From the NCBI RefSeq assembly GCF_003053845.1, contig NZ_QAYG01000001.1:688078-752077 (forward strand): DNA of 64,000 bases, read 5' to 3'. The notes under the pieces were generated by a model. It was not told the origin of the DNA and did not search any database. It saw only the letters and a list, made by a program, of their open reading frames with translations. Origin of the DNA: Breoghania corrubedonensis. Lineage in GTDB: Bacteria > Pseudomonadota > Alphaproteobacteria > Rhizobiales > Stappiaceae. Below, one piece after another: positions 8,350 through 29,228 of this stretch. The position numbers and the translations under genes were made by a program. Numbering within the stretch: the stretch's first letter is position 1; each line of letters opens with the position of its first letter.

Positions 8350-8557
8350 AATGCCTTTTATGACACATCAACCGCAACGACAAACACACTGTGCGCGCGA
8401 ACGCGGAATTGCCGGGTCGCGAAATCACCCGACACATGAACAATACGGATGACGATGTCTGTCCGGCCTTCATGCCCGACAATCGGCAGGCTTGCAAAAA
8501 GTGCCATCTGCCGCGAAGGCTGGGAAACGGATCACACGACAGGAACAGGAGAGAGCC

Positions 8558-16780: not shown

Positions 16781-18174
16781 GTGAATACGATCTGCTCATC
16801 AAGGGCGGCACCGTTGTCACCGGCGTCGACGTCATTGCCTGCGACGTGGGGATCAACGGCGAGCAAATCGCGGCGATCGGTACGAATCTCACAGGCGCGC
16901 GAACCATTGATGCATCGGGTCTTCTCGTCATGCCCGGCGGTGTCGACAGCCATTGCCACATCGAACAGCTCGAGCCGGACGGTTCCATCCACGAGGAAAG
17001 CTTCGGCACGGCGGCACGCTCCGCGTTTGCCGGCGGCACCACGACCGTCATTCCGTTCGCCCCGCAGTTCAAGGGCGAGCCGATCGGCGCGCATCTGCCG
17101 GACTATCGCGCGCGCGCTCAAAAGTCGCCGATCGACTATTCGCTGCACCAGATGGTCACTGATCCGAGTGAAGCCGTTGTCTTTAACGAACTGCCCGCGA
17201 TCGCGGCCGGTGGCGTCGGCAGCTTCAAGGTGTTTCTCACCTACGATCCGCTGCATGTCGATGACGGACAATACATATCGGTGCTGGAGGCGGCGAAGCG
17301 CGCGGGCGCCGTCGTCTGTGTGCACTGTGAGAATTACGAGGCGATCCGCTGGCGTTCCGAGCAGCTTCTGAAGGATGGCAAGACCCAGCCCGCCGCCCAT
17401 GCCTGGTCGCGCCCGAAGGTGGTGGAACGCGAAGCGACCTACCGCGCCATCGCCCTCGCGGAGCTGGTCGACACACCGATCCATATCTTCCATGTCTCCT
17501 GTGCCGAGGTGGCCGAAGAGATCGCCCGCGCCCAGGCCCGTGGCGTCAAGGTGACGGCGGAGACCTGTCCGCAATATCTCGTTCTTTCCGGCTCCGACAT
17601 GGATCGTCCGGGCAAGGAAGGCGCGAAGTACATGTGCAGCCCGAGCCCGCGCGAGGCGGCCGATCATGCCGGCCTGTGGGCGATGATCCGACGGGGCGTT
17701 CTCGACGTTCTGTCGTCGGATCATTGCGGCTACAGCTTTGCCGGCGACAAGGGCAAATGGCTGAACGGCCCGGATGTCGACTTCACCAGGATACCGAACG
17801 GCATCCCCGGCCTTGCCGCCCGGCTGCCGCTGATCTTCAGTGAGGGTGTCGTGAAAGGCGAGATCGATCTTCCGACCTTTGTCCGCCTGACGGCCACCAA
17901 CCCGGCCAAGCGCTTCGGTCTTCATCCGCGCAAGGGCACGATCGCACCGGGTGCCGACGCCGACCTCGTGCTGTGGGATCGGGAACGCAAGGTATCGATC
18001 ACCAATGCGCGGATGCAGCACACGATCGACTACACGCCCTATGAGGGAATCGAGGTGACCGGCTGGCCGGTGAAGACGATCGCCCGCGGCCGCGTGGTGA
18101 TGGAAGACGACGAGGTCACAACCGAGGACGGCCGGGGGCTCTTCCTGAAGAGCGCCCGCACCAGCGCGAACTGA
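16777..18174 (+). CDS. Dihydropyrimidinase/D-hydantoinase-type amidohydrolase
   Basis: A cyclic amidase of 465 aa with the binuclear-zinc set of the family: His59 and His61 in DSHCHIEQ, the lysine to be carboxylated (Lys151) in GSFKVFLTY, and histidines in VCVHCENYE and FHVSCAE. The last metal-binding Asp is in SSDHCGY. It hydrolyses a cyclic ureide, dihydropyrimidine or related cyclic amide. There is no N-carbamoyl amidase nearby, so simple hydantoin use is not obvious. ATG overlaps the GntR stop by four bases. It is the last gene of the operon, with a hairpin at 18198-18227. Confidence 0.88.
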   Translation: MSEYDLLIKGGTVVTGVDVIACDVGINGEQIAAIGTNLTGARTIDASGLLVMPGGVDSHCHIEQLEPDGSIHEESFGTAARSAFAGGTTTVIPFAPQFKGEPIGAHLPDYRARAQKSPIDYSLHQMVTDPSEAVVFNELPAIAAGGVGSFKVFLTYDPLHVDDGQYISVLEAAKRAGAVVCVHCENYEAIRWRSEQLLKDGKTQPAAHAWSRPKVVEREATYRAIALAELVDTPIHIFHVSCAEVAEEIARAQARGVKVTAETCPQYLVLSGSDMDRPGKEGAKYMCSPSPREAADHAGLWAMIRRGVLDVLSSDHCGYSFAGDKGKWLNGPDVDFTRIPNGIPGLAARLPLIFSEGVVKGEIDLPTFVRLTATNPAKRFGLHPRKGTIAPGADADLVLWDRERKVSITNARMQHTIDYTPYEGIEVTGWPVKTIARGRVVMEDDEVTTEDGRGLFLKSARTSAN

Positions 18175-18197
18175 AAGCCCGATTTCCAGTTTACGCC

Positions 18198-18227
18198 TGC
18201 GCGGCGATATGGCCGTGTCGCCGCGCA
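18198..18227 (+). terminator. Hairpin after the hydantoinase gene
   Basis: TGCGCGGCGA / TCGCCGCGCA, a perfect 10-bp stem with a 10-base loop, 24 bases after the stop codon. It is followed by GTTACC with no long T tract. It is the probable end of the catabolic operon. Confidence 0.5.
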
Positions 18228-18691
18228 GTTACCGCCATGAGCCAAGAGGCGCACATCGCTTGCGGATGAGGCCCGCGCATTCAGCTTGCGCCCCACCATC
18301 AAAAGAAATGTCTTTACTTTCTATATAGGCACATCCATGCCCGAATATGCAATATCTACGGAATTTCCGTCAGTTTTATTAAAAATAATAATGTATATAA
18401 ATTTTTATACTCGAATTTAACTAGAATAAACACGCTCCAGAGGCCAAGATCCGCGATAACATATCCTTCATACACTATGACCCTATAGCCCTCGCCACAC
18501 GCTCCGACATGAACTATCCTGCACGTGACTATTTTCATTTACGAATGTCGTGATAATTCCCTTTCGTTATGGTGCCCTAAGGAGCAAAGCGAAATGCTCT
18601 CAGGGCCAAAACCGCATTGCATCGTTTTCGGAACCTCCGCACTCATTGGCGAACCTGTATTGCGAGAAACGTTGATCACTCAGCACCCGTA
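18228..18691. promoter_or_regulatory. AT-rich intergenic region before the acyl-metabolite cluster
   Basis: No gene is visible here. About 18300-18560 is strikingly AT-rich for this genome, with TTTATTAAAAATAATAATG at 18376-18394 and further TATATAAAT-type runs. In this group of bacteria such DNA often carries horizontally acquired promoters and sites for MucR/Ros-type silencers. The promoter of the TPR gene must lie here, but I could not fix a -35/-10 pair. Confidence 0.45.
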
Positions 18692-21600
18692 ATGAACTCA
18701 GAAAACCAGACTTTACCTGACAGTCCTGCTTCAGAACCAGCGTCCGGCGGCACTTGCCTAGAGGAGGTTCTGTCCGAAGGTGTGGCCCATCGAGAAGAGG
18801 GCAGAATCGCGGAGAGCGTTCATCTTCTGTCCATGGCACGCGACAAGTTTCCAGATGCGATAGCCGCGATGTACGAGCTGTCGATTTCCCTGCGCCTTGC
18901 CGGTCAGTGTGACGAGAGCCTGGCGCTGAACCGGGCCGCTTTGAAAATCGATCCCGACCACCGGCCTTCGTTGCTTGCCTGTATCGAAACCAATCTTCAG
19001 CACGGAAGAACGGAAGCGGCGCTGCAGGCGGCACAAGACGCGCTGGAAAAGCGGCCGGAAGACACGCAGTTCCTTATCAAGAAAGGTGCGGCGCTTCGAA
19101 GAACGGGACGCAGCGAGCAAAGCGTCCGGCATCTCGACGCGTTGCGCGCCCGCGCGCCTGAAAACCTCGCGTTGCTGGTCGAACTTGCCATTTCACTGAG
19201 GGACGCGGGCGATGAGGACGCAAGTCTCGCGGTCTGCGAACAGGCGCTGGCACTCCACCCGACGCACAGGAATGCGCTGCGCGCTCGAATTGACACCCTC
19301 CTGCATTTTCACAGGCTCAAGGGGGCCCTTGCCGCGATCGACAATGCCGGTGACACTTTTGCGAGGGATATCGGGCTTCAGCTGAGACGGGGAAGATTGC
19401 TGCAGCAAATCGGCCGATTCGATGAAAGCTCCCGGAGCCTTGCGGCATTGCTTGAGCGGCTGGAGCCGGACGATCCGCAGCGTGACAGGGTCGAACTGGA
19501 GCGGGCCCGCGCCCTGCTCGGCGAAGGGGACTGCGCGGCGAGCCTCGCTCTGACAACGCGCATACTGAACAAGCAGCCCCGCAATCTGGCGGCCTGGCTT
19601 CACCGCATCGATACGCAGGCCCACGTTCTCCAACTGGACGATGCGTTGACATCCGCAGATGACGCCTTGGCGGCGCTTCCCGCAAACGACGCCTTGTTGC
19701 TCAAGAAGGCAACGCTTCTGCGGCAGGCCGGTTGGCTTGTCGAAAGTGACCGGCTGCTCAGGTCCATCGCCAGCGACACGCCGCAGTTGCAGCTCGCCCG
19801 GATCGAGAGCGCGCTCGCGCTCGGCCGGATCGATACGGCAAGGTCGGCCCTTCAGGCGCTATGGGATCGCGGAGACCAGACAGCCAGGATCGCACTTGAC
19901 CTGATCAGGACCCTGAGAATGGAGGGAGACCTCACGCAGGCGCGGATATTCGCCGAGACAGCGGTTGGTGTCCTTCCCGATGCCCCAACGCCTCTCACGA
20001 CATTGCTCGACCTGTGCCTGGAAATGAATGACCGCGAAACCGCGGACCGGCTCTTGGAAGAGATGCCGCCAGGCATGCGCGACAAACCGGCGTTGCGTCA
20101 GCTTCTGGCCAAGATCGCGCTTAGGGACGAAGACTTCGAAGGTGCGGCGACGTCGCATATCGAAGCGGCCGGGGATGCGAGCGTTCCCACAATCGAATTC
20201 AACGCGGCGCTTGCCGTCGCGCGAAGCGCGATCACCGAGCGCGATACGGTGCAATCGATCTTTGGCCGGCTCGAGGGGCTGCTCGATCGCAAGGCGGCGT
20301 CCCTCCCGCCCTTCACGATCTCGATGCTGAGAGCGAGGATGCTCGCCGCCGCCGGCGACTGGAAAAAGCTTCATCCGCTGGTTACCAGCCTTGAAAAGGA
20401 ACAGCCGAGGTTGCTCGAACTCACATTGCTCAGGGCCCGAGCGGCCTTCGAGCTTGCAAGGTTCGACGAAGCGGGTGCGGCGGTCGCGCGGGTTCTGGAA
20501 AACAACCCTCTGGATGCACCCGCCGCACGGCTGCGGAACGCACTTCTCCTGCTGCAAGGCAAGATCGAGCAGTATTTCGAAATCAATATCGCACGCGCGG
20601 CAAACCCCGCCGCAATGACCGAAACCGACTATGTCGAGCTCGTCAAGAACCTGCTCATGGCAGGCAGAAACGATCGCGCGGCCGACCTTCTGAAATACCC
20701 GCCACGCCACTTTAGAAATAGCGAAAGGATCGGATTTCAGAGGCAGCTCATGACCGGAGATTCGACTTTCGCGGAACCGGATCGCGAACGCGTCACGCAG
20801 GAACCGGATATCGCGACAATACCCGGCAAGACGCTCGCGAGATTGCTCGATTTCAACGACGAAACGGCATTGGCCGGCGATGTCCTCATTCCGTCCTTGT
20901 GGATCGCCTGGATGATGCGCAGCGACGCGAAAGAGAGCTTTGACGACTGGCGCCGTGTCGCGCTTGCCGCCGACCACGTCTACGAAGCGATCAGACAGAA
21001 GCCACGCTTCGGGGCCCCGCCCCGCGAGGTGCTGCACGACACGGACTACGCAGAACTCGGGGAGCGGATGCGAAACAGGCTGCCGACGCTCATCGTGACG
21101 AGCCATTCCGGCCCGGCGATGCTCTCGTTGATGCTGGAGCGGTTTGAAACCATCCGCTATTTCGTCCAGCCGTTCCAGAAGGACTGGATCCACTCCATCA
21201 AGGCCAATACGATCCGCTTTGCGGGCCACAAGAACGACACCGCGGTCGAGATCGTCCGGAACCTCAGGCAAGGCAACAGCATCTATTCGCTGCCGGACCT
21301 GCCCGTCAGCATTGTCAAGATGCACGATCCCAGCACGATGGCGGTTGGGACGCTTTTCGGCCAGCCCTACCCCATCCTGGACACGTTTCCCAAGATCAGC
21401 CGTGCGATGCGGATACCCAGCTTCTGGGTGCAACCGGTCTGGCGCGAAGGAAAAATCCACATCGACATCGAGCGCTTGCCGATGGCGGAGCCGGGCGAAG
21501 CGGAAGATGTATGGTGCGCGCGCTGGGCGCAAAGCTATCTCGACCGCGTGGAGGCGTTGTTGGCATCAGGTCCGGAGAACCAATCGCTCCGCCTTCCTGT

Positions 21601-21757
21601 GTGGCGCTATTTCCTGCTGAAAGGCCTTGGCCCGGCCGCCATCCGGCATGCGGAAGAATCCATGAAAAGACTTGACCCTGCGGACAGGAACCCTGCACGC
21701 TGGATAGACCACATAAAAAACTGGGCAAGCGGTGTGGGCATACTCAACAGACGTTGA
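18692..21757 (+). CDS. TPR-repeat protein with C-terminal LpxL-like acyltransferase-type domain
   Basis: A large protein of about 1021 aa. Residues 25 to about 650 are repeated 34-residue helical pairs of TPR type (for example ALALHPTHRNALRARIDTLL). The region about 780-980 resembles the lauroyl/myristoyl acyltransferase (LpxL/HtrB, LPLAT) fold. It has SHSG with His805 at the motif-I position, then IVRNLRQGNSIYSLPDLP and TLFGQPYPILDTFPKISRAM. The acidic residue of the usual H-x4-D/E motif is not seen, so catalysis is uncertain. No signal peptide is evident. I use ATG 18692; a TTG 75 bases up is in frame, and neither has a clear ribosome site. It is followed by the radical SAM gene and probably cotranscribed. 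Confidence 0.65.
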   Translation: MNSENQTLPDSPASEPASGGTCLEEVLSEGVAHREEGRIAESVHLLSMARDKFPDAIAAMYELSISLRLAGQCDESLALNRAALKIDPDHRPSLLACIETNLQHGRTEAALQAAQDALEKRPEDTQFLIKKGAALRRTGRSEQSVRHLDALRARAPENLALLVELAISLRDAGDEDASLAVCEQALALHPTHRNALRARIDTLLHFHRLKGALAAIDNAGDTFARDIGLQLRRGRLLQQIGRFDESSRSLAALLERLEPDDPQRDRVELERARALLGEGDCAASLALTTRILNKQPRNLAAWLHRIDTQAHVLQLDDALTSADDALAALPANDALLLKKATLLRQAGWLVESDRLLRSIASDTPQLQLARIESALALGRIDTARSALQALWDRGDQTARIALDLIRTLRMEGDLTQARIFAETAVGVLPDAPTPLTTLLDLCLEMNDRETADRLLEEMPPGMRDKPALRQLLAKIALRDEDFEGAATSHIEAAGDASVPTIEFNAALAVARSAITERDTVQSIFGRLEGLLDRKAASLPPFTISMLRARMLAAAGDWKKLHPLVTSLEKEQPRLLELTLLRARAAFELARFDEAGAAVARVLENNPLDAPAARLRNALLLLQGKIEQYFEINIARAANPAAMTETDYVELVKNLLMAGRNDRAADLLKYPPRHFRNSERIGFQRQLMTGDSTFAEPDRERVTQEPDIATIPGKTLARLLDFNDETALAGDVLIPSLWIAWMMRSDAKESFDDWRRVALAADHVYEAIRQKPRFGAPPREVLHDTDYAELGERMRNRLPTLIVTSHSGPAMLSLMLERFETIRYFVQPFQKDWIHSIKANTIRFAGHKNDTAVEIVRNLRQGNSIYSLPDLPVSIVKMHDPSTMAVGTLFGQPYPILDTFPKISRAMRIPSFWVQPVWREGKIHIDIERLPMAEPGEAEDVWCARWAQSYLDRVEALLASGPENQSLRLPVWRYFLLKGLGPAAIRHAEESMKRLDPADRNPARWIDHIKNWASGVGILNRR

Positions 21758-21833
21758 GTGCCCCACATTCCCCAAAGAAGAACGTGAAGATGGTCTGCCG
21801 CGTCGTTCCTCAGTCACCAGACGGAGATGCCAA

Positions 21834-23438
21834 GTGAAGTTCCTTCTCGTTGCACCCCGCTATGAAACCGACAACGAGCAGGTCAGTCCACTGAATGCGT
21901 TCGACGCCTCGATCGGCGGCTACGAGATGAACCCTTCCACCGCCATCGCGACGATCGCGGCCATGGCTCCGGCAGGCATCGACGTGGAGCTGTGCAACGA
22001 GGTTACGCAGCCGCTCGACTTCGATAGCGACGCCGATTTCATCGGCGTCACCGCGAATGTCGGCCAGGCGAAACGCGCGCTTTGGATCGCTGACGAATTC
22101 CGTTCGCGCGGCAAGCCTGTCGTGATGGGCGGGCCGCATGTCACGCTCGCGCCGGAGGTCTTCCGCGATCATTGCGACTGTATGTTCACCGGCGAGCTGG
22201 AGGCCGTCGCGGATCGTTTCTTCGCGGACATGGCCACAGGCACCTTGAAGCCGCACTACAACGGGCCGGGCATCGATTTGACGGCCTCGCCCGCGCCGCG
22301 CTGGGACCTCTATCCCACCGACAGGCTCGCCACCGGCATCGTCCAGACGAGCCGCGGCTGCCCCTTCACCTGTAATTTCTGCGATGTGATCCAGTATCTG
22401 GGCAATCGTCAGCGCTACAAGTCGGTCGGCCAGGTCATGGACGAGATTCGCCAGCTCTATGACCTGGGCTTCGCCTCCATCATGATCACCGACGACAACT
22501 TCTCGGCCAACCGCAAGAAATCAACCGAGATCCTCGCGGCGATCGAGGAGTGGAACGGGGCCGAGGGACGCGACTTCGTGACCTTCCAGACCCAGCTTTC
22601 CGTCAACATGACGAAGCACGAGAGCATGCTGTCAGCCTGCTATCGTGCGGGCCTTCTGACGGCCTACATGGGTATCGAATCGGACGATCCCGCAGCGCTC
22701 GACGAGTGCGACAAGCGGCCGAACAAGGGATTCGATCTCATCCGCCAGTGCGAGACCTCCATCAAGGCCGGCGTACGCGTCGAAGCGGCCTTCATCGTCG
22801 GCTTCGACAGCGACAACCTCTCCGCCTTCGAACGTCAGTTCAGGTTCGCCATGGCCCTGCCGATCGGAACGCCGCGCATCAGCCCGCTCGTCGCCCCGAT
22901 CAGCACGCCGCTGTTCGACGACATGCGCGCCGCCGGCCGCCTCATCAACGACGATTCCTTCGGTCCCTGCCATTTCACTTCGAACTTCCAGCCGGCACAG
23001 ATGTCGCGTGCGGAGCTTTATATCGGCTTGCGGTGGCTGATAAGCAGCCTCTACCATCCGGACAACTTCTTCTTCCGCGTGGAGCGGTTGGCCGACATGC
23101 TGGCCCCACCGCCCTGGATCGCGCGCGGACTGAAGCAGAAGCGCGCGCCGCGCCCCGCGGTCGCGCGCATGACATCGGCGCTGCTGAAGGAAGCGATGAT
23201 GATGGACTGGGATGTGCGGGCGCTGATCGACCGCACTCTCGAACTCGCCCGCACACGACCGGAAAACGGCTGGGCTATCAGCGAGATCCTGTTCCGTTAC
23301 CTCGCCATTCTGTCCAACCTGACGAAGACCGGAATGTTTGACATGACATGGGGCGAGATGGCCGCGCCGCCGTTCGAGCGTGGTTACAGCGACCATCGGC
23401 TGGAAAGCATCAGGCGCGAGGAAGCGCTCGCCGCGTAA
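21834..23438 (+). CDS. B12-binding radical SAM protein (DUF4070-type C-terminus)
   Basis: A 534-aa enzyme. Residues about 1-145 are a cobalamin-binding-like domain, with VKFLLVAPRYETDN and PVVMGGPHVTLAPE typical of the BchE/HpnP/HpnJ class. The radical SAM site CPFTCNFCD places Cys176, Cys180 and Cys183 on the 4Fe-4S cluster. The C-terminal part is of the DUF4070 kind. This class methylates or rearranges unreactive carbons. The GTG at 21834 has GGAG seven bases before it, which settles the start. It lies 76 bases behind the TPR gene and ends 9 bases from the convergent carbamoyltransferase gene. It probably acts on the lipid or acyl product of the cluster. Confidence 0.85.
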   Translation: MKFLLVAPRYETDNEQVSPLNAFDASIGGYEMNPSTAIATIAAMAPAGIDVELCNEVTQPLDFDSDADFIGVTANVGQAKRALWIADEFRSRGKPVVMGGPHVTLAPEVFRDHCDCMFTGELEAVADRFFADMATGTLKPHYNGPGIDLTASPAPRWDLYPTDRLATGIVQTSRGCPFTCNFCDVIQYLGNRQRYKSVGQVMDEIRQLYDLGFASIMITDDNFSANRKKSTEILAAIEEWNGAEGRDFVTFQTQLSVNMTKHESMLSACYRAGLLTAYMGIESDDPAALDECDKRPNKGFDLIRQCETSIKAGVRVEAAFIVGFDSDNLSAFERQFRFAMALPIGTPRISPLVAPISTPLFDDMRAAGRLINDDSFGPCHFTSNFQPAQMSRAELYIGLRWLISSLYHPDNFFFRVERLADMLAPPPWIARGLKQKRAPRPAVARMTSALLKEAMMMDWDVRALIDRTLELARTRPENGWAISEILFRYLAILSNLTKTGMFDMTWGEMAAPPFERGYSDHRLESIRREEALAA

Positions 23439-23447
23439 TACCAGCGC

Positions 23448-25130
23448 TCACGGTTTCTCGACCAGGTAGTCTTCGCAAAGCACGCCATCGAGGCCGGTGG
23501 TCGCGAGGATGGCCAGCGCATCTTCCACCGAATGCGCGATCGGCTTGCCCATGACATTCAGGCTCGTATTGAGAGCGACGGGCACGCCGGTCGTCTGGCG
23601 CAAGGAATCGAGAAGCGCGCTCATCCACGGCTGACTGTCCGGCGAGACCGTCTGCAACCGTCCCGTGCCGTCTGCATGAACGACAGAGGGCACCCGCACC
23701 TGCACGGTGGAGCGCCAGGGCAGCGTGATCGACATGTAGGGCGAGGGTTGCGGACGTTCGAACCAGTCGCCGACCTCCGCTTCCAGCACGACGGGGGCGA
23801 GCGGGCGATAGGGCTCGCGCCCCTTGATCTCGGCGTTGATGCGATCCTTGATCTCGGGCCGCGTCGGATCGGCGAGGATGGAGCGATGGCCGAGCGCGCG
23901 GGGCCCGAATTCCGCCGGCCCGCGCATGACGCCGATCACCCGCCCCTCGGCGAGCCGGCCGGCGACCGCGGCCGCAGAGCGGCCCGAAACATCCGTGACC
24001 GACAGGCCGTTTGCGGCATGCGCCATCTTGCGTTCGATCGCCCTGTCGGGAACTGTCCCCAGAAAGGGCGAGGCGTCGGGACTTGCGGGTACGCCCGCCA
24101 CACCACGATCCTGCATGAAGGCGAGCAGCGCGGCACCGATGGCGTTGCCGTCGTCGGCCGGACACGGCGCGATATGCACGCGCTCGAAGCCGAGCCGGCC
24201 CGCGATCGTGCCGTTATAGGAGGAATTGAGTGCGCAGCCGCCCGTCAGCAAAAGGTCGGGCACGCCATCTTCGCGCACATCCGCGATCACGCGGTCGGCG
24301 AGCGCGGCGTATACCGCCTGCCCCGTCGCGGCAAGATCGGCAGCCTTCATGATCGGCTCTGCAGGCATGCGTGCGTGGGCCCGCGTCAGCGCATCGATCG
24401 CGGCAATCGTTTCGTTGTCCGCAAACTTCAGGCGCCCGTGATCGACCAAGAGAAGCCGGGTCATCTCGCCTTGCAGCTCGGGCAGAATCGAACCATAGGC
24501 GGCAAGCCCCATGACCTTCCATTCCTCGCCAAGCCGCCAGTCGAAGCCGCAATGAAAGGTCAGCCAGGCATAGAAGGTTCCCAGACTGCCGGGGCCCCAG
24601 CCACGCCATTTGCGCTTCAGTTCGCGCGATGACATGGAGAACAGCGAGGCCGCGCCCACCTCCCCCTCGCCATCGAGCACGAGGCAGACCGCATCATCAA
24701 CAGGCGCGAAATAGGCCGTTGCGGCGGCATGGCAGTGATGATGGTCGAAGTGGAGCGTTTCCCGTCGCCCATCCTCCACGCCGAGACGCAGCAGATTGGC
24801 GCCTGCGCTCGCCTGAAGGCCGGCCTGAAGGCCCCGCATCCAGATCGTGTCGGAGGCTGGCAGCATGGCGTCGTGGACGACGATATCGAGCGACGCCTTG
24901 ACCGCTTTCCAGCTCGTCGCGACCACGAAACGATCGCGTTCGGGATCCGCACCGCAAGCTTTCAGCGCATGTTCCAGGTGCGTGACGTGATCGGGCGCTA
25001 TCCCCCAGGCGCGTTTGTCCTGAACGAAGCGTTCCGTCGCCTCGGCAAACCGGATCTGCCCGGCTTCATCGGCGATCGCCAGGGCAGGATCATGACCTGA
25101 AGTGGACAGTCCGAGATACCACGTGGTCAC
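23448..25130 (-). CDS. NodU/CmcH family carbamoyltransferase
   Basis: A 560-aa O-carbamoyltransferase using carbamoyl phosphate and ATP. The N-terminal Kae1-like domain begins WYLGLSTSGHDPALAI and holds the metal-binding HFDHHHCHAAATAYF, then LVLDGEGE. The ATP-binding GGCALNSSYNG follows. The C-terminal domain opens with EFGPRALGHRSILADPT and closes with VPVALNTSLNVMGKP, both hallmarks of the family. It makes a carbamate ester on a hydroxyl, here most simply one placed by the P450 protein. Its ATG overlaps the ACP stop by four bases. Confidence 0.92.
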   Translation of the reverse strand: MTTWYLGLSTSGHDPALAIADEAGQIRFAEATERFVQDKRAWGIAPDHVTHLEHALKACGADPERDRFVVATSWKAVKASLDIVVHDAMLPASDTIWMRGLQAGLQASAGANLLRLGVEDGRRETLHFDHHHCHAAATAYFAPVDDAVCLVLDGEGEVGAASLFSMSSRELKRKWRGWGPGSLGTFYAWLTFHCGFDWRLGEEWKVMGLAAYGSILPELQGEMTRLLLVDHGRLKFADNETIAAIDALTRAHARMPAEPIMKAADLAATGQAVYAALADRVIADVREDGVPDLLLTGGCALNSSYNGTIAGRLGFERVHIAPCPADDGNAIGAALLAFMQDRGVAGVPASPDASPFLGTVPDRAIERKMAHAANGLSVTDVSGRSAAAVAGRLAEGRVIGVMRGPAEFGPRALGHRSILADPTRPEIKDRINAEIKGREPYRPLAPVVLEAEVGDWFERPQPSPYMSITLPWRSTVQVRVPSVVHADGTGRLQTVSPDSQPWMSALLDSLRQTTGVPVALNTSLNVMGKPIAHSVEDALAILATTGLDGVLCEDYLVEKP

Positions 25131-25384
25131 TGAGCCGCGATCCGTTCGTCGATAAGCCCCAGGAAACTGTCGAGCGTGTCATGTTCGAAGATGGAAGCAG
25201 GGTCGAGCTCGATGTCGAACTTGTCCTCCACCTCGCCGCACAAAAGAACCGCATCGATCGATTGCAGACCCATATCGACGAAAACGGACGAACCGGTGAT
25301 CATCGACGGATCCCGCTTGGTGATCTCGGCGAGCCGCTGGGTCAGGAATGCGGCGACCTCGCCGCGTTTTGTGTTTTCTGTCAT
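25127..25384 (-). CDS. Acyl carrier protein
   Basis: A free-standing carrier protein of 85 aa. The phosphopantetheine site is Ser42 in DMGLQSIDAV, and helix III is recognisable in FDIELDPASIFEHDTLDSFL. It differs clearly from a housekeeping AcpP (which reads DSLD). It lies between the P450 gene (20 bases before) and the carbamoyltransferase gene (4-base overlap). It is therefore the natural carrier on which the ligase-activated acyl chain would be modified. A phosphopantetheinyl transferase is not in the window. Confidence 0.92.
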   Translation of the reverse strand: MTENTKRGEVAAFLTQRLAEITKRDPSMITGSSVFVDMGLQSIDAVLLCGEVEDKFDIELDPASIFEHDTLDSFLGLIDERIAAQ

Positions 25385-25403
25385 TCGCTTTTTCTGTGCC
25401 AGT

Positions 25404-27590
25404 TCAGGAAAGAAGACAGGGAAGGCGATCGAGCGCGACCGTCTGGGACATCTCTAGATAACGATGTCGCTGCGGGTCCAGTCGAATATCGGGATGACGG
25501 GAAAAAAGCGCCGGAACGGCGGTGCGCAGGATCTGCCGCGACATGGCAGCGCCCAGGCAGCGGTGAAGGCCGTGGCCGAAGGCAAGATGACCGACTGGTT
25601 CATGCCGGTTGATGGAAAGAAGCTGCAAACGCGCGGTCGTTCCCGCCTCAACCATTTCTTCGCCCAGTCTTACCGGCTTGCGGGCCACCCGGTAGATGTA
25701 TTTTGGCGCCGCGCACAGGGCGATCAACCCGTCCAGGCGTTTCTCGAACGTGCCCTTGTCGCGTGCGAAGACCCGCTCTTCGGGCGGCAGCAGCAAGATG
25801 TGATAGAGCACGTTGGCAAGCGTGTGGCGCACATTGAAGCTCGCCCCGTAGAGAACGAGTGCCAACGCCTTGATCTCATCCGCGCCAAAGCCCTCCGGTC
25901 TGTCCGCCACAAGAGCATGGAGCAGCGGCACCGGTCCCTCTCCGCTCTGTTGCGAACCCGCATCCGGCAACACCATGAGATCGAGAAGCGCGGCCATCAC
26001 GTCCTGGATCCGCAGCAATTCGCGCATTGGCAGCCAGGGATGCAGCACATCCTGTATCTTCGGTGCAAGCGCATCGAAACGCGCCTCATCGCGAACCTTG
26101 ATGCCCAGCACCGGCTTGACCGACGCCGTGAACAACGGTTCGGTGAAATCGGCGACGAGATCGACCTTCGCCTGCCCGTCGAGGCGCCCGCTCACCTCAC
26201 CGGCAACGGCTTCCCAGTGCGGGTGCCATGCGGAAATCCGGTTACCGCCGAGATTGTCCATGACCATCCGGCGCAATGTCTCGTGCCGGGCGCCAGCAAG
26301 AAAAAACGGAGCATTGCGCGCCACCTCGATGGCGGTCGCCAGATCGCGGCCGGACTTTTCCTGCAAGACTTCCAGATGCTCCGCCATTGGCGGCGGCATC
26401 CAGTTCACGTCGTCATTGACGATCGCGCGGGCATCCGCCTTGCAGCGGATTTCCACCATCCGGGCATTGATGCGTTCATTGACCGGCGCCAGCACGCAGG
26501 GAAGCGTCGTCGGGCATTGCAGGATCGATGTCAGGTGCGGGCGGATGCGATCACGGTGGAGGGCAAGACCGGGAAAGGCGTTGGCAAGGCGCGGAAGAAC
26601 CTCGCCGATGAAGGCACGGCCCAGCGGTTCGCCGACGCATTTGTGAACGCCCGCGCCAAACGACATGTGGGCGGTCCTCTCGCCCGTCCGTTCGCGCAGC
26701 GCCGCATTGGCGCCGACCATGTCGAGAATGATCGTCTGGCCGGCCGCGAACGGACAGCCGCGCACTTGCGTATCCTCCTCCGCCACACGACCGAGCGTCA
26801 GTGTCGGCAGATAAAGGGAGACGACGAGTTCTGTCGTGTGATCGGCCCTCGACAGATCGCCGATCTCGTCCCATGCCTCGCGCGGGCGCAGCAACAGCCC
26901 GTGCAGGGCGAACGACATCGTCTGAACGATCGTGTAGGCGGCGATCGCGGCGGAGATGGCGATGTTGACATCCGCTCCCAGCGGATCGAGCGGGGCGTCG
27001 CCGGGCGCCAGGAAAGCCAGCAACGACCCTTCGGGACGGGGAGAACGCACGAGGCGGGCCGCAAGCTCTCCCATTGCCGTATCGATGCGCTTCAGCTCCG
27101 ACAAGGGCAACAGCGGCTCGGTGGCGTTGTTGGCGCAACCGATCAACCGGACCAGTTCGCTCCTGTCGACATGACTGTCATCTTGACTGTCGCTGGCGTC
27201 GAACCCCACAAATTCGGAGATCACCTCGCCGAAGACGGGCTCGACGAAATCACGCACGAGATCCGGATCATCCGCCGCCGCAAGCACCGGAAAGCCGCGC
27301 TCGGCCGCGGCGCGGATCCGCGGCCGCCAGCGATCGACAGCGGCAAGCGAGAAGAACGAGGCGACACGGCGGCGCAGGGCCCTGTGTTCCTTGCCCGACA
27401 AAAAGATGAAGCTGTGCTCGATCATCGCCCGGAATTGCGGCAACGTCGTTCCGCGCGCCTCCAACTGGTCGAGATAGGGCGCGTAATCGCCCGGCGTCAT
27501 GACGGCGGAACGCAATATCTCGCGGATCAGATCCGGATCAGCGACCCTCTGTTCGCGGTTCTTCCATTTGCTTTTTTCGATTGCGACCAC
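25404..27590 (-). CDS. Tandem cytochrome P450-like fusion protein
   Basis: One 728-aa chain holds two short P450-like domains. The first (1 to about 375) has helix C as EHRALRRRV and a haem loop FGAGVHKCVG with Cys318. The second (about 376-728) has HETLRRMV and FGHGLHRCLG with Cys678. The cysteines are 360 residues apart. I cannot find the K-helix ExxR motif in either half (the places read ELVVSLYLP and LDGLIALCAAP). The oxygen-activating AGxxT of helix I also seems absent (AAIAAYTIVQT and YGASFNVRHT). Both haem loops look intact, so haem binding is likely but ordinary monooxygenase chemistry is doubtful. The start is a GTG at 27590, six bases after the ligase TGA. Redox partners are not encoded nearby. 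Confidence 0.8.
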   Translation of the reverse strand: MVAIEKSKWKNREQRVADPDLIREILRSAVMTPGDYAPYLDQLEARGTTLPQFRAMIEHSFIFLSGKEHRALRRRVASFFSLAAVDRWRPRIRAAAERGFPVLAAADDPDLVRDFVEPVFGEVISEFVGFDASDSQDDSHVDRSELVRLIGCANNATEPLLPLSELKRIDTAMGELAARLVRSPRPEGSLLAFLAPGDAPLDPLGADVNIAISAAIAAYTIVQTMSFALHGLLLRPREAWDEIGDLSRADHTTELVVSLYLPTLTLGRVAEEDTQVRGCPFAAGQTIILDMVGANAALRERTGERTAHMSFGAGVHKCVGEPLGRAFIGEVLPRLANAFPGLALHRDRIRPHLTSILQCPTTLPCVLAPVNERINARMVEIRCKADARAIVNDDVNWMPPPMAEHLEVLQEKSGRDLATAIEVARNAPFFLAGARHETLRRMVMDNLGGNRISAWHPHWEAVAGEVSGRLDGQAKVDLVADFTEPLFTASVKPVLGIKVRDEARFDALAPKIQDVLHPWLPMRELLRIQDVMAALLDLMVLPDAGSQQSGEGPVPLLHALVADRPEGFGADEIKALALVLYGASFNVRHTLANVLYHILLLPPEERVFARDKGTFEKRLDGLIALCAAPKYIYRVARKPVRLGEEMVEAGTTARLQLLSINRHEPVGHLAFGHGLHRCLGAAMSRQILRTAVPALFSRHPDIRLDPQRHRYLEMSQTVALDRLPCLLS

Positions 27591-27593
27591 TGT

Positions 27594-29228
27594 TCAATGC
27601 CTCTGCCGGGGCTCGCCTTGGAGTCCCCCGTTGCGATAGTCAATTGCCACCTGCCGGCGCTGTATCTTGCCGCTGGTGGTTCGCGGCAGACGGCCGCGGG
27701 GGAGAATGCGGATCTCGTCGAAGGCCAGGCCCCATTCGCCGAGCGCGAGCGCGCGGATCGCCGCCTTGATCTCCTCGACATCCTCCGGCATCGCCCCGCC
27801 TTCGGCGGTTTCCACGATGAGGACGGCACTGGCGGAAACCAGATCGTCGACCATGAAGGCGGCAGCCGCCAGCGGGTTGAGCGCGAAATGGGGACGACAG
27901 GTCACCCATTCGACCTCGGCAGCCGACATCTTCCGGCCGTGACTGATCAGGATGTCCTTCGTCCGCCCGACGATGAAAAGCCGGTCTGCCTCGATTCGTC
28001 CCAGATCGCCGGTGCGCAGGAATTCTCCCTCTTCCGCATCGAGCCTCGCATGAAACGCGTGCGCGGTCTCCTGCGGCAGATCGAGATAGCCGCGCCCCTT
28101 TGACGCCCCTTTCAGCCAGATCTCGCCCATGAGGCCAGGGGTGGCTTCTTGCCCCGTCTCCGGATCGACGATCCGCACTCCGTCGCGAAGTTCCTCGTTC
28201 AGGCGGCAGGCATGGGAGGCCGCCGTATTTTCGTCCACCGTCGCGGCATCATCCGGAAGTCCTGCCGCAAACAAGGTCATTTCCGCCATGCCATAACACG
28301 CGAAAAGGGCCTCGCGACGCAATCCTGCCGGCGCAAGATGCCCCGCCACTGCCTCCAGCAACCCGTTTGGGACGGGCTCGGCGCCGCAAAATCCCCGTTC
28401 CCAAGCAGACAGATCGAGGCCAGCGAGATCTTCCCGTTTGACGCGCTTGACGAGGTCGGAGAAGGCGAAAGCGGGCCCGCCACTGAACGTCGCCCGCCAG
28501 TCGGATATGGCTTGCAACCATGAGCGGGGGCTGCGCACGAAATCGTAGGGGCTCATCTGGATGGACAGGCCGCCGCACAACAGCGGGTAGAGGATGCCGC
28601 CCATGAGTCCCATGTCGTGGAAATGCGGCATCCAGTTCACGAAGCGGCACCGCTCGTCCATCTGCCACGATCTCATCACCAGAGCGCAATTGGCCAGGAT
28701 GTTGTCGGCGCCGATCAGCACGCCCTTGGGGTCTTTCGTCGATCCCGAGGTGTACTGGATGATCGCGGCAGGCGGGCGGGATCGCACGGACTGTCCGGGC
28801 GCGACCAGTTTTTGCGACGGATCCTCACCGAGCACGACGATCGGCACGTCGATATCGGCGAGCGCCGCCCGGATCGCGGGCTCCTGTGTCGGCGTGCACA
28901 GAACGGCGTCGGCGCCGCAATCGCGCACGATATGTGTCAGCCTGTCGGAGGCGCTGCCGCGCCGGGGCGGGGAAACGGGGACTGCCGTGATGCCCGCAAG
29001 CAGACAACCGAACAGGGTCGTGAGAAAAACCGGCCCCGGCGGCAATGCCAGCACCAGAACGCGCGCGCCCGCGGCGCCAAGCTGCCCGGCGCGCTCCTGC
29101 GCGGCCCGCGCCAATGCGCCACCCGTGAACCGATGCTCCAATCGCCCCCGGCTGAGCGTACACAGGATCTCGCTGTCGCTGCGCTCCCGACAGGCCTGTA
29201 GAAATCGATGCGCGAGGTCGTCAGACAC
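27594..29228 (-). CDS. Fatty-acyl-AMP ligase-type acyl-activating enzyme
   Basis: A 544-aa member of the ANL superfamily with features of fatty-acyl-AMP ligases. The P-loop is QYTSGSTKDPKGV, then WMPHFHDMGLMGGILYPLL (the FAAL HDMGL motif), FCGAEPV, and CYGMAEMTLFAAG. The hinge is TGDLGRIEADRLFIVGRTKD, and the C-terminal lysine loop is TTSGKIQRRQV. FAALs form acyl-adenylates and hand the acyl group to a carrier protein rather than to CoA; the ACP two genes on fits that. It is first in the leftward operon. Whether the FAAL-specific insertion is present needs an alignment. Confidence 0.85.
   Translation of the reverse strand: MSDDLAHRFLQACRERSDSEILCTLSRGRLEHRFTGGALARAAQERAGQLGAAGARVLVLALPPGPVFLTTLFGCLLAGITAVPVSPPRRGSASDRLTHIVRDCGADAVLCTPTQEPAIRAALADIDVPIVVLGEDPSQKLVAPGQSVRSRPPAAIIQYTSGSTKDPKGVLIGADNILANCALVMRSWQMDERCRFVNWMPHFHDMGLMGGILYPLLCGGLSIQMSPYDFVRSPRSWLQAISDWRATFSGGPAFAFSDLVKRVKREDLAGLDLSAWERGFCGAEPVPNGLLEAVAGHLAPAGLRREALFACYGMAEMTLFAAGLPDDAATVDENTAASHACRLNEELRDGVRIVDPETGQEATPGLMGEIWLKGASKGRGYLDLPQETAHAFHARLDAEEGEFLRTGDLGRIEADRLFIVGRTKDILISHGRKMSAAEVEWVTCRPHFALNPLAAAAFMVDDLVSASAVLIVETAEGGAMPEDVEEIKAAIRALALGEWGLAFDEIRILPRGRLPRTTSGKIQRRQVAIDYRNGGLQGEPRQRH

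Follow-up and report, generated by a model that had tools for sequence, protein, structure and literature searches.

In the Dlt system, a residue is loaded onto a carrier by a ligase, and its delivery outside the cell is attributed to an MBOAT protein acting with DltD; in Vibrio cholerae, the Alm system uses a ligase, a carrier and an LPLAT protein to put glycine on lipopolysaccharide (LPS), and the parallel between Alm and Dlt has been drawn (PMC3783018). VexE, which combines tetratricopeptide repeats (TPR) with an LPLAT domain, moves a β-hydroxyacyl group from acyl carrier protein (ACP) to UDP-GlcNAc; it is active without the usual HX4D/E acid and depends on His466 and Asp532, which lie 66 residues apart (PMC9597891). 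Here we analyse a locus in a 64,000-nucleotide stretch of DNA from Breoghania corrubedonensis (the window; positions 688,078 to 752,077 of contig NZ_QAYG01000001.1) that encodes a fatty acyl-AMP ligase (FAAL), a fused double cytochrome-P450-like protein (the double P450), a free-standing ACP and an O-carbamoyltransferase, referred to together as the core, as well as a putatively B12-binding radical S-adenosylmethionine (SAM) protein and a TPR-LPLAT protein.

The comparison of this locus with its relatives suggests, with a probability that we put at roughly 60%, that an unusual acyl-ACP is built by the four genes of the core and passed on to one of several interchangeable exit enzymes. The gene content and order, the co-inheritance of the core, the exchange of exits and the motifs described below are observed. 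Clustering of the genes beside the core gave three recurrent families of exit, unrelated to one another, and their interchange is the most informative part of the analysis.

A co-inherited core with exchanged exits

Relatives were gathered with the double P450 as the marker. It occurs at E ≤ 1e-60 in 9 of the 87 genomes of the window's family, in 4 of 397 sampled from the order (all four belonging to that family) and, among 385 genomes sampled from the class and 398 sampled from the phylum (the latter at E ≤ 1e-40), in its own genome only. Because so few genomes are positive in these samples, we regard the double P450 as rare, yet it is spread over several orders. A scan of named genomes followed by alignment yielded 24 nearly whole-length relatives among the best 80 of 231, in Rhodovulum, Roseovarius, Rhizobium, Stappia, Roseibium, Sphingopyxis, Brevundimonas, Methylorubrum, Aurantimonas and others; two near full-length relatives lie on plasmids (Phaeobacter sp. 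G2 and Rhodobacteraceae SC52). The other 56 of the best 80 (L045–L100) are weaker matches of about one P450 in length and are actinobacterial by title. The locus set used below comprises 31 non-redundant alphaproteobacterial loci, the window included, after the removal of four duplicates.

All four core genes are present in 29 of the 31 loci; they follow one another plainly as FAAL–double P450–ACP–carbamoyltransferase in 28, and the twenty-ninth (L015) has two tandem partial units of the same order. Positions 8405–17008 of L015 (genome G071) carry a FAAL tail, a full P450 and an ACP, followed by a thioesterase-like gene, a full FAAL, a P450 tail, an ACP and a carbamoyltransferase. Since the core recurs in 30 loci besides the window, 28 of them with all four genes, the gene set is not a product of chance. 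The double P450 (E ≤ 1e-60), the cassette-type carbamoyltransferase (E < 1e-200) and the radical SAM protein (E ≤ 1e-60) are found in the identical 9 of the 87 family genomes. The cassette-type carbamoyltransferases of the family are 58–72% identical to that of the window (itself excluded; E < 1e-214) and well separated from the others, the best of which reaches 4.6e-73; any carbamoyltransferase at E ≤ 1e-20 is found in 23 of the 87 genomes. A second carbamoyltransferase-like stretch, 45–54% identical to the window's and with an internal stop, is present in the sister species (G002, C24:264029-265289). The sequence distances of five genes are also correlated (Mantel r 0.78–0.93 over 21–30 loci, L013 left out, near-relatives inflating the values), and for each of the 10 gene pairs none of 2,000 permutations was as high. 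A chance neighbourhood was rejected on these three grounds: recurrence in loci, the shared 9 of 87 genomes and the Mantel correlation.

The radical SAM gene is less constant, adjoining the core in 22 of the 31 loci and, across a contig break, in one more (23/31), and it is gained or lost at least 5 times on the core tree. An exit gene was found for all 31 cores: a TPR-LPLAT gene in 13, an MBOAT gene in 9 and a thioesterase-like gene in 9. The original prediction had staked its claim beforehand on the six genes staying together in related genomes; this held for the four-gene core (29/31) and not for the radical SAM gene (23/31) or the TPR-LPLAT exit (13/31). Within the loci themselves, the exit counts are 11 LPLAT, 9 MBOAT and 8 thioesterase-like, with none in three; the exits located outside are two LPLATs farther along the same contig and one thioesterase-like gene across a contig break. 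In none of the 31 loci do two exit types stand together, and Rhodobacter sp. NTK016B carries two cassettes, one with a thioesterase-like exit and the other with an LPLAT exit. L013 and L030, in which FAAL was not found, were left out of the core tree, and the three loci with no exit inside were omitted from the change count. Over the 26 rows thus counted, the exit changes at least 7 times, and the starred branches force at least 4 LPLAT, at least 4 MBOAT and at least 3 thioesterase changes, each type taken singly.

The possibility that Rhodovulum and Xinfangfangia have an exit of a fourth type was rejected, the known exits having been located farther off. The core-adjacent genes tested there encode an FkbM-type methyltransferase, ABC transporter parts, an aromatic-ring hydroxylase and an iron alcohol dehydrogenase, or are unmatched. 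Whole-genome searches placed a TPR-LPLAT gene downstream in both Rhodovulum species, on the contigs of lengths 344,935 and 317,045 that also hold the core (about 15 kb from the carbamoyltransferase gene in L101, the one mapped), and gave no match in these genomes to the MBOAT or thioesterase-like exit, the MBOAT search being one that had no positive control. In Xinfangfangia, a short contig bearing a thioesterase-like gene, a radical SAM gene and the start of a FAAL gene fits the contig whose cassette begins inside FAAL, and no LPLAT match was found in the whole genome.

The window's exit is of the TPR-LPLAT type, and its C terminus matches the VexE model NF011721 (E 9e-13, below cut-off). Pfam did not detect the LPLAT end, and a PDB profile search with this part gave one weak match, to a phage portal protein, which we took as chance. 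The fold search agrees with the LPLAT-like end that had originally been proposed: with a C-terminal AlphaFold model of moderate confidence (predicted local distance difference test (pLDDT) score, 65.5), the first 16 PDB matches in Foldseek are LpxM, PatA and PlsC. Nine TPR-LPLATs were aligned, the window's and those of eight relatives, L036 being dropped because an insertion sequence splits its gene. The HX4D/E motif is absent from all nine, position +5 being N, M, F, L or G, and an invariant His and Asp lie 62–64 residues apart (64 in the window's protein). This layout resembles that of VexE and would make the protein kin to a proven ACP-dependent acyltransferase, in line with the earlier proposal that the TPR protein carries out the final acyl transfer. 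In L036 (3982–5331; a Rhodobacteraceae metagenome-assembled genome), a DDE transposase gene separates the TPR part of the exit from the LPLAT part.

The MBOAT exit has about 500 residues; the one tested, from L024, matches Pfam at E 9.4e-14 and the DltB model TIGR04091 at E 1.2e-35, below cut-off. In all nine loci it is followed by a protein of about 300–340 residues with SGNH-type G-S and D-x-x-H motifs, for which no Pfam, NCBIfam or PDB profile match was obtained. On the L012 plasmid (18182–23582), the cassette-linked MBOAT pair adjoins a second MBOAT with an SGNH-annotated neighbour, and the same families are found in L044. The third exit is a thioesterase-like alpha/beta hydrolase, in which a cysteine replaces the usual serine in 7 of 7 aligned sequences (the near-copy L029 left out) and the histidine is kept in 6 of 7. 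It matches the NocB thioesterase model (E 2.7e-6); Pfam gave no useful match.

Because delivery enzymes of the LPLAT and MBOAT types, as in Alm/VexE and Dlt, share one core, the common product of that core is probably an acyl-ACP, and the repeated exchange of three unrelated exits amounts to a natural experiment that fixes this likely logic. The LPLAT, the MBOAT and the hydrolase could instead release the chain, or condense it with small amines or alcohols, to give a diffusible secondary metabolite in all species. The patchy distribution, the two clusters on plasmids and the thioesterase-like exit of 9 of the 31 loci would suit such a product, but two of the three exits are related to acyltransferases of envelope glycans or lipids (VexE, LpxM, PatA and DltB), and we consider a diffusible product unlikely.

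Predicted chemistry of the core

The ligase of the window contains an AMP-binding Pfam domain (E 4.1e-49), and its first-ranked NCBIfam model is fatty-acid--AMP ligase (E 9.6e-85, below cut-off). Its PDB matches include 7r7f (2.4e-86), labelled as a polyketide synthase, which we take to be a FAAL domain, as well as 3kxw, FadD23 and FadD32; seven of the best 15 are labelled as FAAL or FadD23/28/32, and the eight that carry other labels are presumably FAALs too. By the order of its NCBIfam and PDB matches, the ligase is closest to fatty acyl-AMP ligases, not to CoA ligases. The ACP has a PP-binding Pfam match (E 1.1e-12) and the site DMGLQSID, the phosphopantetheine serine of which (S42) is invariant in 12 of 12 aligned sequences.

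The carbamoyltransferase matches both Carbam_trans_C (1.1e-59) and Carbam_trans_N (7.8e-28), and its closest PDB entries are NovN (9s2t, 5.4e-84), GdmN and TobZ. H13, H130, H134, D153 and D326 are invariant in 10 of 10 aligned sequences, and we take them to correspond to H14, H114, H118, D137 and D338 of TobZ, which form the metal site and supply the base. The protein is thus likely to be an active O-carbamoyltransferase with a putative hydroxyl substrate. This hydroxyl may lie on the ACP-bound chain or on the acceptor, such as a sugar; in the latter case, the ACP would carry a plain fatty acid. The first-ranked NCBIfam model is NodU (E 1.1e-47, below cut-off), which carbamoylates the sugar of Nod factors, and NovN, GdmN and TobZ, its close relatives of solved structure, carbamoylate antibiotics on sugars or macrocycles; these matches speak for the acceptor. 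However, the carbamoyltransferase gene stays beside that of the ACP (with a 4-base overlap in the window) whatever the exit, including the MBOAT and thioesterase types, for which different acceptors would be expected. We therefore think it quite improbable that the acceptor is the substrate, and favour carbamoylation of the carrier-bound chain.

The radical SAM protein matches the Radical_SAM (1.6e-14) and DUF4070 (3.3e-7) families of Pfam, and its CPFTCNFC motif fits CxxxCxxC. Its B12-binding match (E 1.6e-5) scores 25.1 bits against a cut-off of 32.1, and the nearest PDB entries are AprD4 (6fd2, E 1.6e-11) and TokK (3.5e-5). The DUF4070 literature yielded nothing bearing on the gene set.

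Two p450 Pfam stretches (E 3.2e-10) are present in the window's double P450, the AlphaFold model of which is confident (pLDDT 90.6). P450BioI is the best sequence match of the whole double-P450 profile, and in Foldseek the chains of three P450BioI–acyl-ACP entries account for 12 of the first 24 matches. OxyB and P450sky, which act on carrier-bound substrates, are also near the top of the fold matches. Motif registers were set by PDB profile alignments of the whole protein and of the second half, and 24 sequences were compared. All 24 second halves and 23 of the 24 first halves retain the haem cysteine motif FGxGxHxCxG. The I-helix acid–alcohol pair is found in none of the 24 in either half: the acid and Thr positions are T/S/A/V and A/V/M/I/L in the first half and F and N, in 24 of 24, in the second, where the motif GA(S/G)FNxxHTLxN is conserved throughout (24/24). 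The arginine of ExxR is present in 4 of the 24 first halves, the motif being complete in one (L037), and is absent from all 24 second halves, in which position 624 is S, A, P or G.

Because both halves are without the acid–alcohol pair and nearly always without ExxR, ordinary P450 hydroxylation is doubtful. The protein may instead hold the chain or carry out haem chemistry that is driven by peroxide or independent of O2. Read as an ordinary oxidation, the P450 modification first proposed is at odds with the absence from both halves of the pair for O2 activation. The linear six-gene pathway of which it was part, with hydroxylation by an ordinary P450, carbamoylation, methylation by the radical SAM protein and a final transfer by the TPR protein, accords with the adjacency of the six genes in the window and their gathering in several relatives. 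The P450 motifs, however, are not those of a monooxygenase, and the radical SAM and TPR-LPLAT genes accompany only the fractions of cores given above, which makes this pathway very unlikely. Alternatively, the double P450 may serve to hold the acyl-ACP as a scaffold with no catalysis of its own, the chemistry being left to the carbamoyltransferase and the radical SAM protein. The counts for the I-helix pair (0/24 in either half) and for ExxR (1/24 first halves; Arg in 0/24 second halves) would be expected of such a scaffold, whereas the haem cysteines and the second-half I-helix motif are conserved, which indicates a kept haem and a particular reaction; a pure scaffold therefore seems somewhat doubtful to us. 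In L041 (9485–11206; Methylorubrum), the first-half haem loop is lost and the second half is whole, which may mean that the latter does the work.

The pathway that we infer, its product included, would begin with adenylation of a carboxylic acid by the FAAL and its loading onto the dedicated ACP, a step that is strongly indicated. The fused P450-like protein may then bind the acyl-ACP and either bring about a haem–thiolate change other than by the usual activation of O2 or hold the chain for the next enzyme, and the carbamoyltransferase may carbamoylate a hydroxyl on the ACP-bound chain. The radical SAM protein, where present, could conceivably methylate or rearrange the chain or its precursor, the least firm of the proposed steps. 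Finally, the acyl group very probably leaves the ACP via one of the three exits. In the window, the VexE-like TPR-LPLAT would acylate a sugar or lipid in the cytoplasm; elsewhere, the DltB-like MBOAT and its small SGNH-like partner would pass the acyl group across the membrane, or the cysteine-nucleophile hydrolase would release or transfer it. More tentatively, and rather against the odds, the cassette might represent a new class of envelope or metabolite acylation, in which a non-monooxygenase double haem–thiolate protein acts on a carrier-bound chain that is then carbamoylated, with three unrelated exits swapped on a fixed core. If this is true, one and the same unusual acyl group is passed to a sugar, moved across the membrane or set free.

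Several observations weigh against the reading of a core that supplies an acyl-ACP to interchangeable exits. FAAL was not found in 2 of the 31 loci: L013, a broken-looking copy in the sister species, in which the carbamoyltransferase is interrupted by stops and the radical SAM gene is in fragments, and L030, one of the two cassettes of Rhodobacter sp. NTK016B, the other of which (L034) has FAAL. No radical SAM gene was found beside 8 of the 31 cores, and several loci are near-copies (L011/L029, L012/L044 and L022/L025), so the 31 loci are not 31 independent cases. The core tree was made by a quick method, and L027 and L036 are long branches of unsure placement. Exit exclusivity was tested in loci of 13.5–30 kb and in the whole genomes of three only, with the MBOAT search lacking a positive control, and the Xinfangfangia genome shows four thioesterase-like matches. 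The SGNH-like partner is assigned by motif only; the thioesterase kinship is weak, single matched stretches giving E 0.03 and 1.1, and the protein of L041 has Tyr in place of the histidine. The NCBIfam matches to the VexE, DltB, NodU and FAAL models all fall under the curated cut-offs and, because none reaches its cut-off, denote kinship, not membership. Lastly, the likeness to P450BioI may be general: other bacterial P450s score nearly equally in Foldseek, and with the second P450 half alone, BioI is absent among the 60 PDB matches listed.

The locus in the window

All six reading frames of the cassette are open in the window (Table 1). They form two operons that, as originally predicted, converge, with nine bases (23439–23447) between the stop codons; 3 bases separate the FAAL and P450 genes and 19 the P450 and ACP genes.

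Table 1. Genes of the cassette, in window coordinates.
Product	Position	Strand	Evidence
TPR-LPLAT protein (VexE-like acyltransferase, exit type 1)	18692..21757	+	TPR Pfam matches, VexE-model match, fold search
Radical SAM protein, putatively B12-binding, with DUF4070 region	21834..23438	+	Pfam, CPFTCNFC motif, PDB
NodU/TobZ-type O-carbamoyltransferase (core)	23448..25130	-	Both Pfam domains, PDB, invariant residues
Free-standing acyl carrier protein (core)	25127..25384	-	PP-binding, phosphopantetheine serine
Fused double cytochrome-P450-like protein (core)	25404..27590	-	Two p450 stretches, AlphaFold model, motif counts
Fatty acyl-AMP ligase, FAAL (core)	27594..29228	-	NCBIfam order, PDB order

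The six gene identities put forward in the original prediction are borne out by Pfam and NCBIfam, with the NCBIfam matches below their cut-offs and B12-binding below that of Pfam, and the free ACP has its serine in the DMGLQSID site as described. The absence of a polyketide synthase (PKS) or non-ribosomal peptide synthetase (NRPS) module was likewise upheld: none was found by Pfam among the six genes or among the 10 neighbouring window genes tested, which are of amino-acid, pyrimidine and sugar-transport types together with a thiolase, and none in the relatives' flank genes that were scanned or seen annotated. An ordinary fatty-acid, lipopeptide or polyketide locus was rejected on this basis. 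Of the overall pathway first proposed, a conserved, co-inherited acyl-ACP set and transfer by the TPR protein have stood and ordinary P450 oxidation has not; the interchange of exits had been missed.

The assembly that holds the window is 5.3 Mb in size. GC content over positions 18000–20999, which cover most of the TPR-LPLAT gene, is 0.592, against 0.618–0.669 in the 3-kb intervals between 9 and 39 kb that overlap this one little; this lower value would fit a separately acquired exit gene. Within the window's genus, the cassette of Breoghania sp. MO_035.B22 (L013/L021) has no FAAL match in either locus and carries the radical SAM and P450 genes in pieces. This copy looks broken and, unless the assembly is poor, is a natural loss relative for comparison.

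Comparison with described systems

In keeping with the original prediction that no described pathway has this gene set, no description of it was found in our searches of the open-licence literature. Carbamoylated acyl groups on lipids or glycans were absent from the results of the one search aimed at them, the only match of which, on lipoproteins, is unrelated, and the main text of a 2025 review of FAALs does not mention P450, carbamoyl, MBOAT or radical SAM (PMC11837247). The cassette shares a stand-alone FAAL and a stand-alone ACP with the starter pairs of lipopeptide and polyketide clusters but, unlike these, was seen with no PKS or NRPS. P450BioI, as a P450 solved with acyl-ACP and the top fold and profile sequence match, resembles the double P450, but it is a single domain with AGHETT and ExxR, whereas the cassette protein consists of two fused domains without these.

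VexE, which serves the glycolipid anchor of the Vi antigen, resembles the window's exit in its TPR and LPLAT parts, its ACP dependence and its non-canonical His with a distant Asp, and differs in taking a β-hydroxyacyl group from an ordinary ACP to UDP-GlcNAc (PMC9597891). By contrast, the cassette has a dedicated FAAL–ACP pair with tailoring enzymes, and the best-matched stretches of the VexE model in the cassette proteins extend over only 74–86 residues. The Alm system has, like the window, a ligase, a carrier and an LPLAT acyltransferase (AlmG), but to our knowledge no P450, carbamoyltransferase or TPR part. The group that it transfers to LPS is glycine (PMC3783018). The Dlt system (DltA, DltC, DltB and DltD) shares with the MBOAT-type loci an adenylating ligase, a small carrier and an MBOAT with a second small protein. 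The cassette differs from it in having a FAAL instead of a D-alanine ligase, a double P450 and a carbamoyltransferase in the core, and Gram-negative alphaproteobacterial hosts. It is also no Dlt operon by its exits: a DltB-like MBOAT is found in 9 of the 31 loci and not in that of the window, and DltD was not matched.

The cassette brings together the tailoring of natural products on a carrier protein and acyl delivery of the Dlt/Alm type, which are usually separate, and the double P450, which lacks oxygen-activation motifs yet conserves its haem cysteines, may be the seat of new haem chemistry. The pairing of the core with one of three unrelated exits in different relatives suggests a novel means of modifying the cell surface or of producing metabolites, with an acyl group that probably bears a carbamate. 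Because the acyl group would leave the carrier through such an exit, we liken the cassette to Dlt and Alm with tailoring added on the carrier: real, co-inherited and apparently undescribed, it would work like both and is a member of neither.

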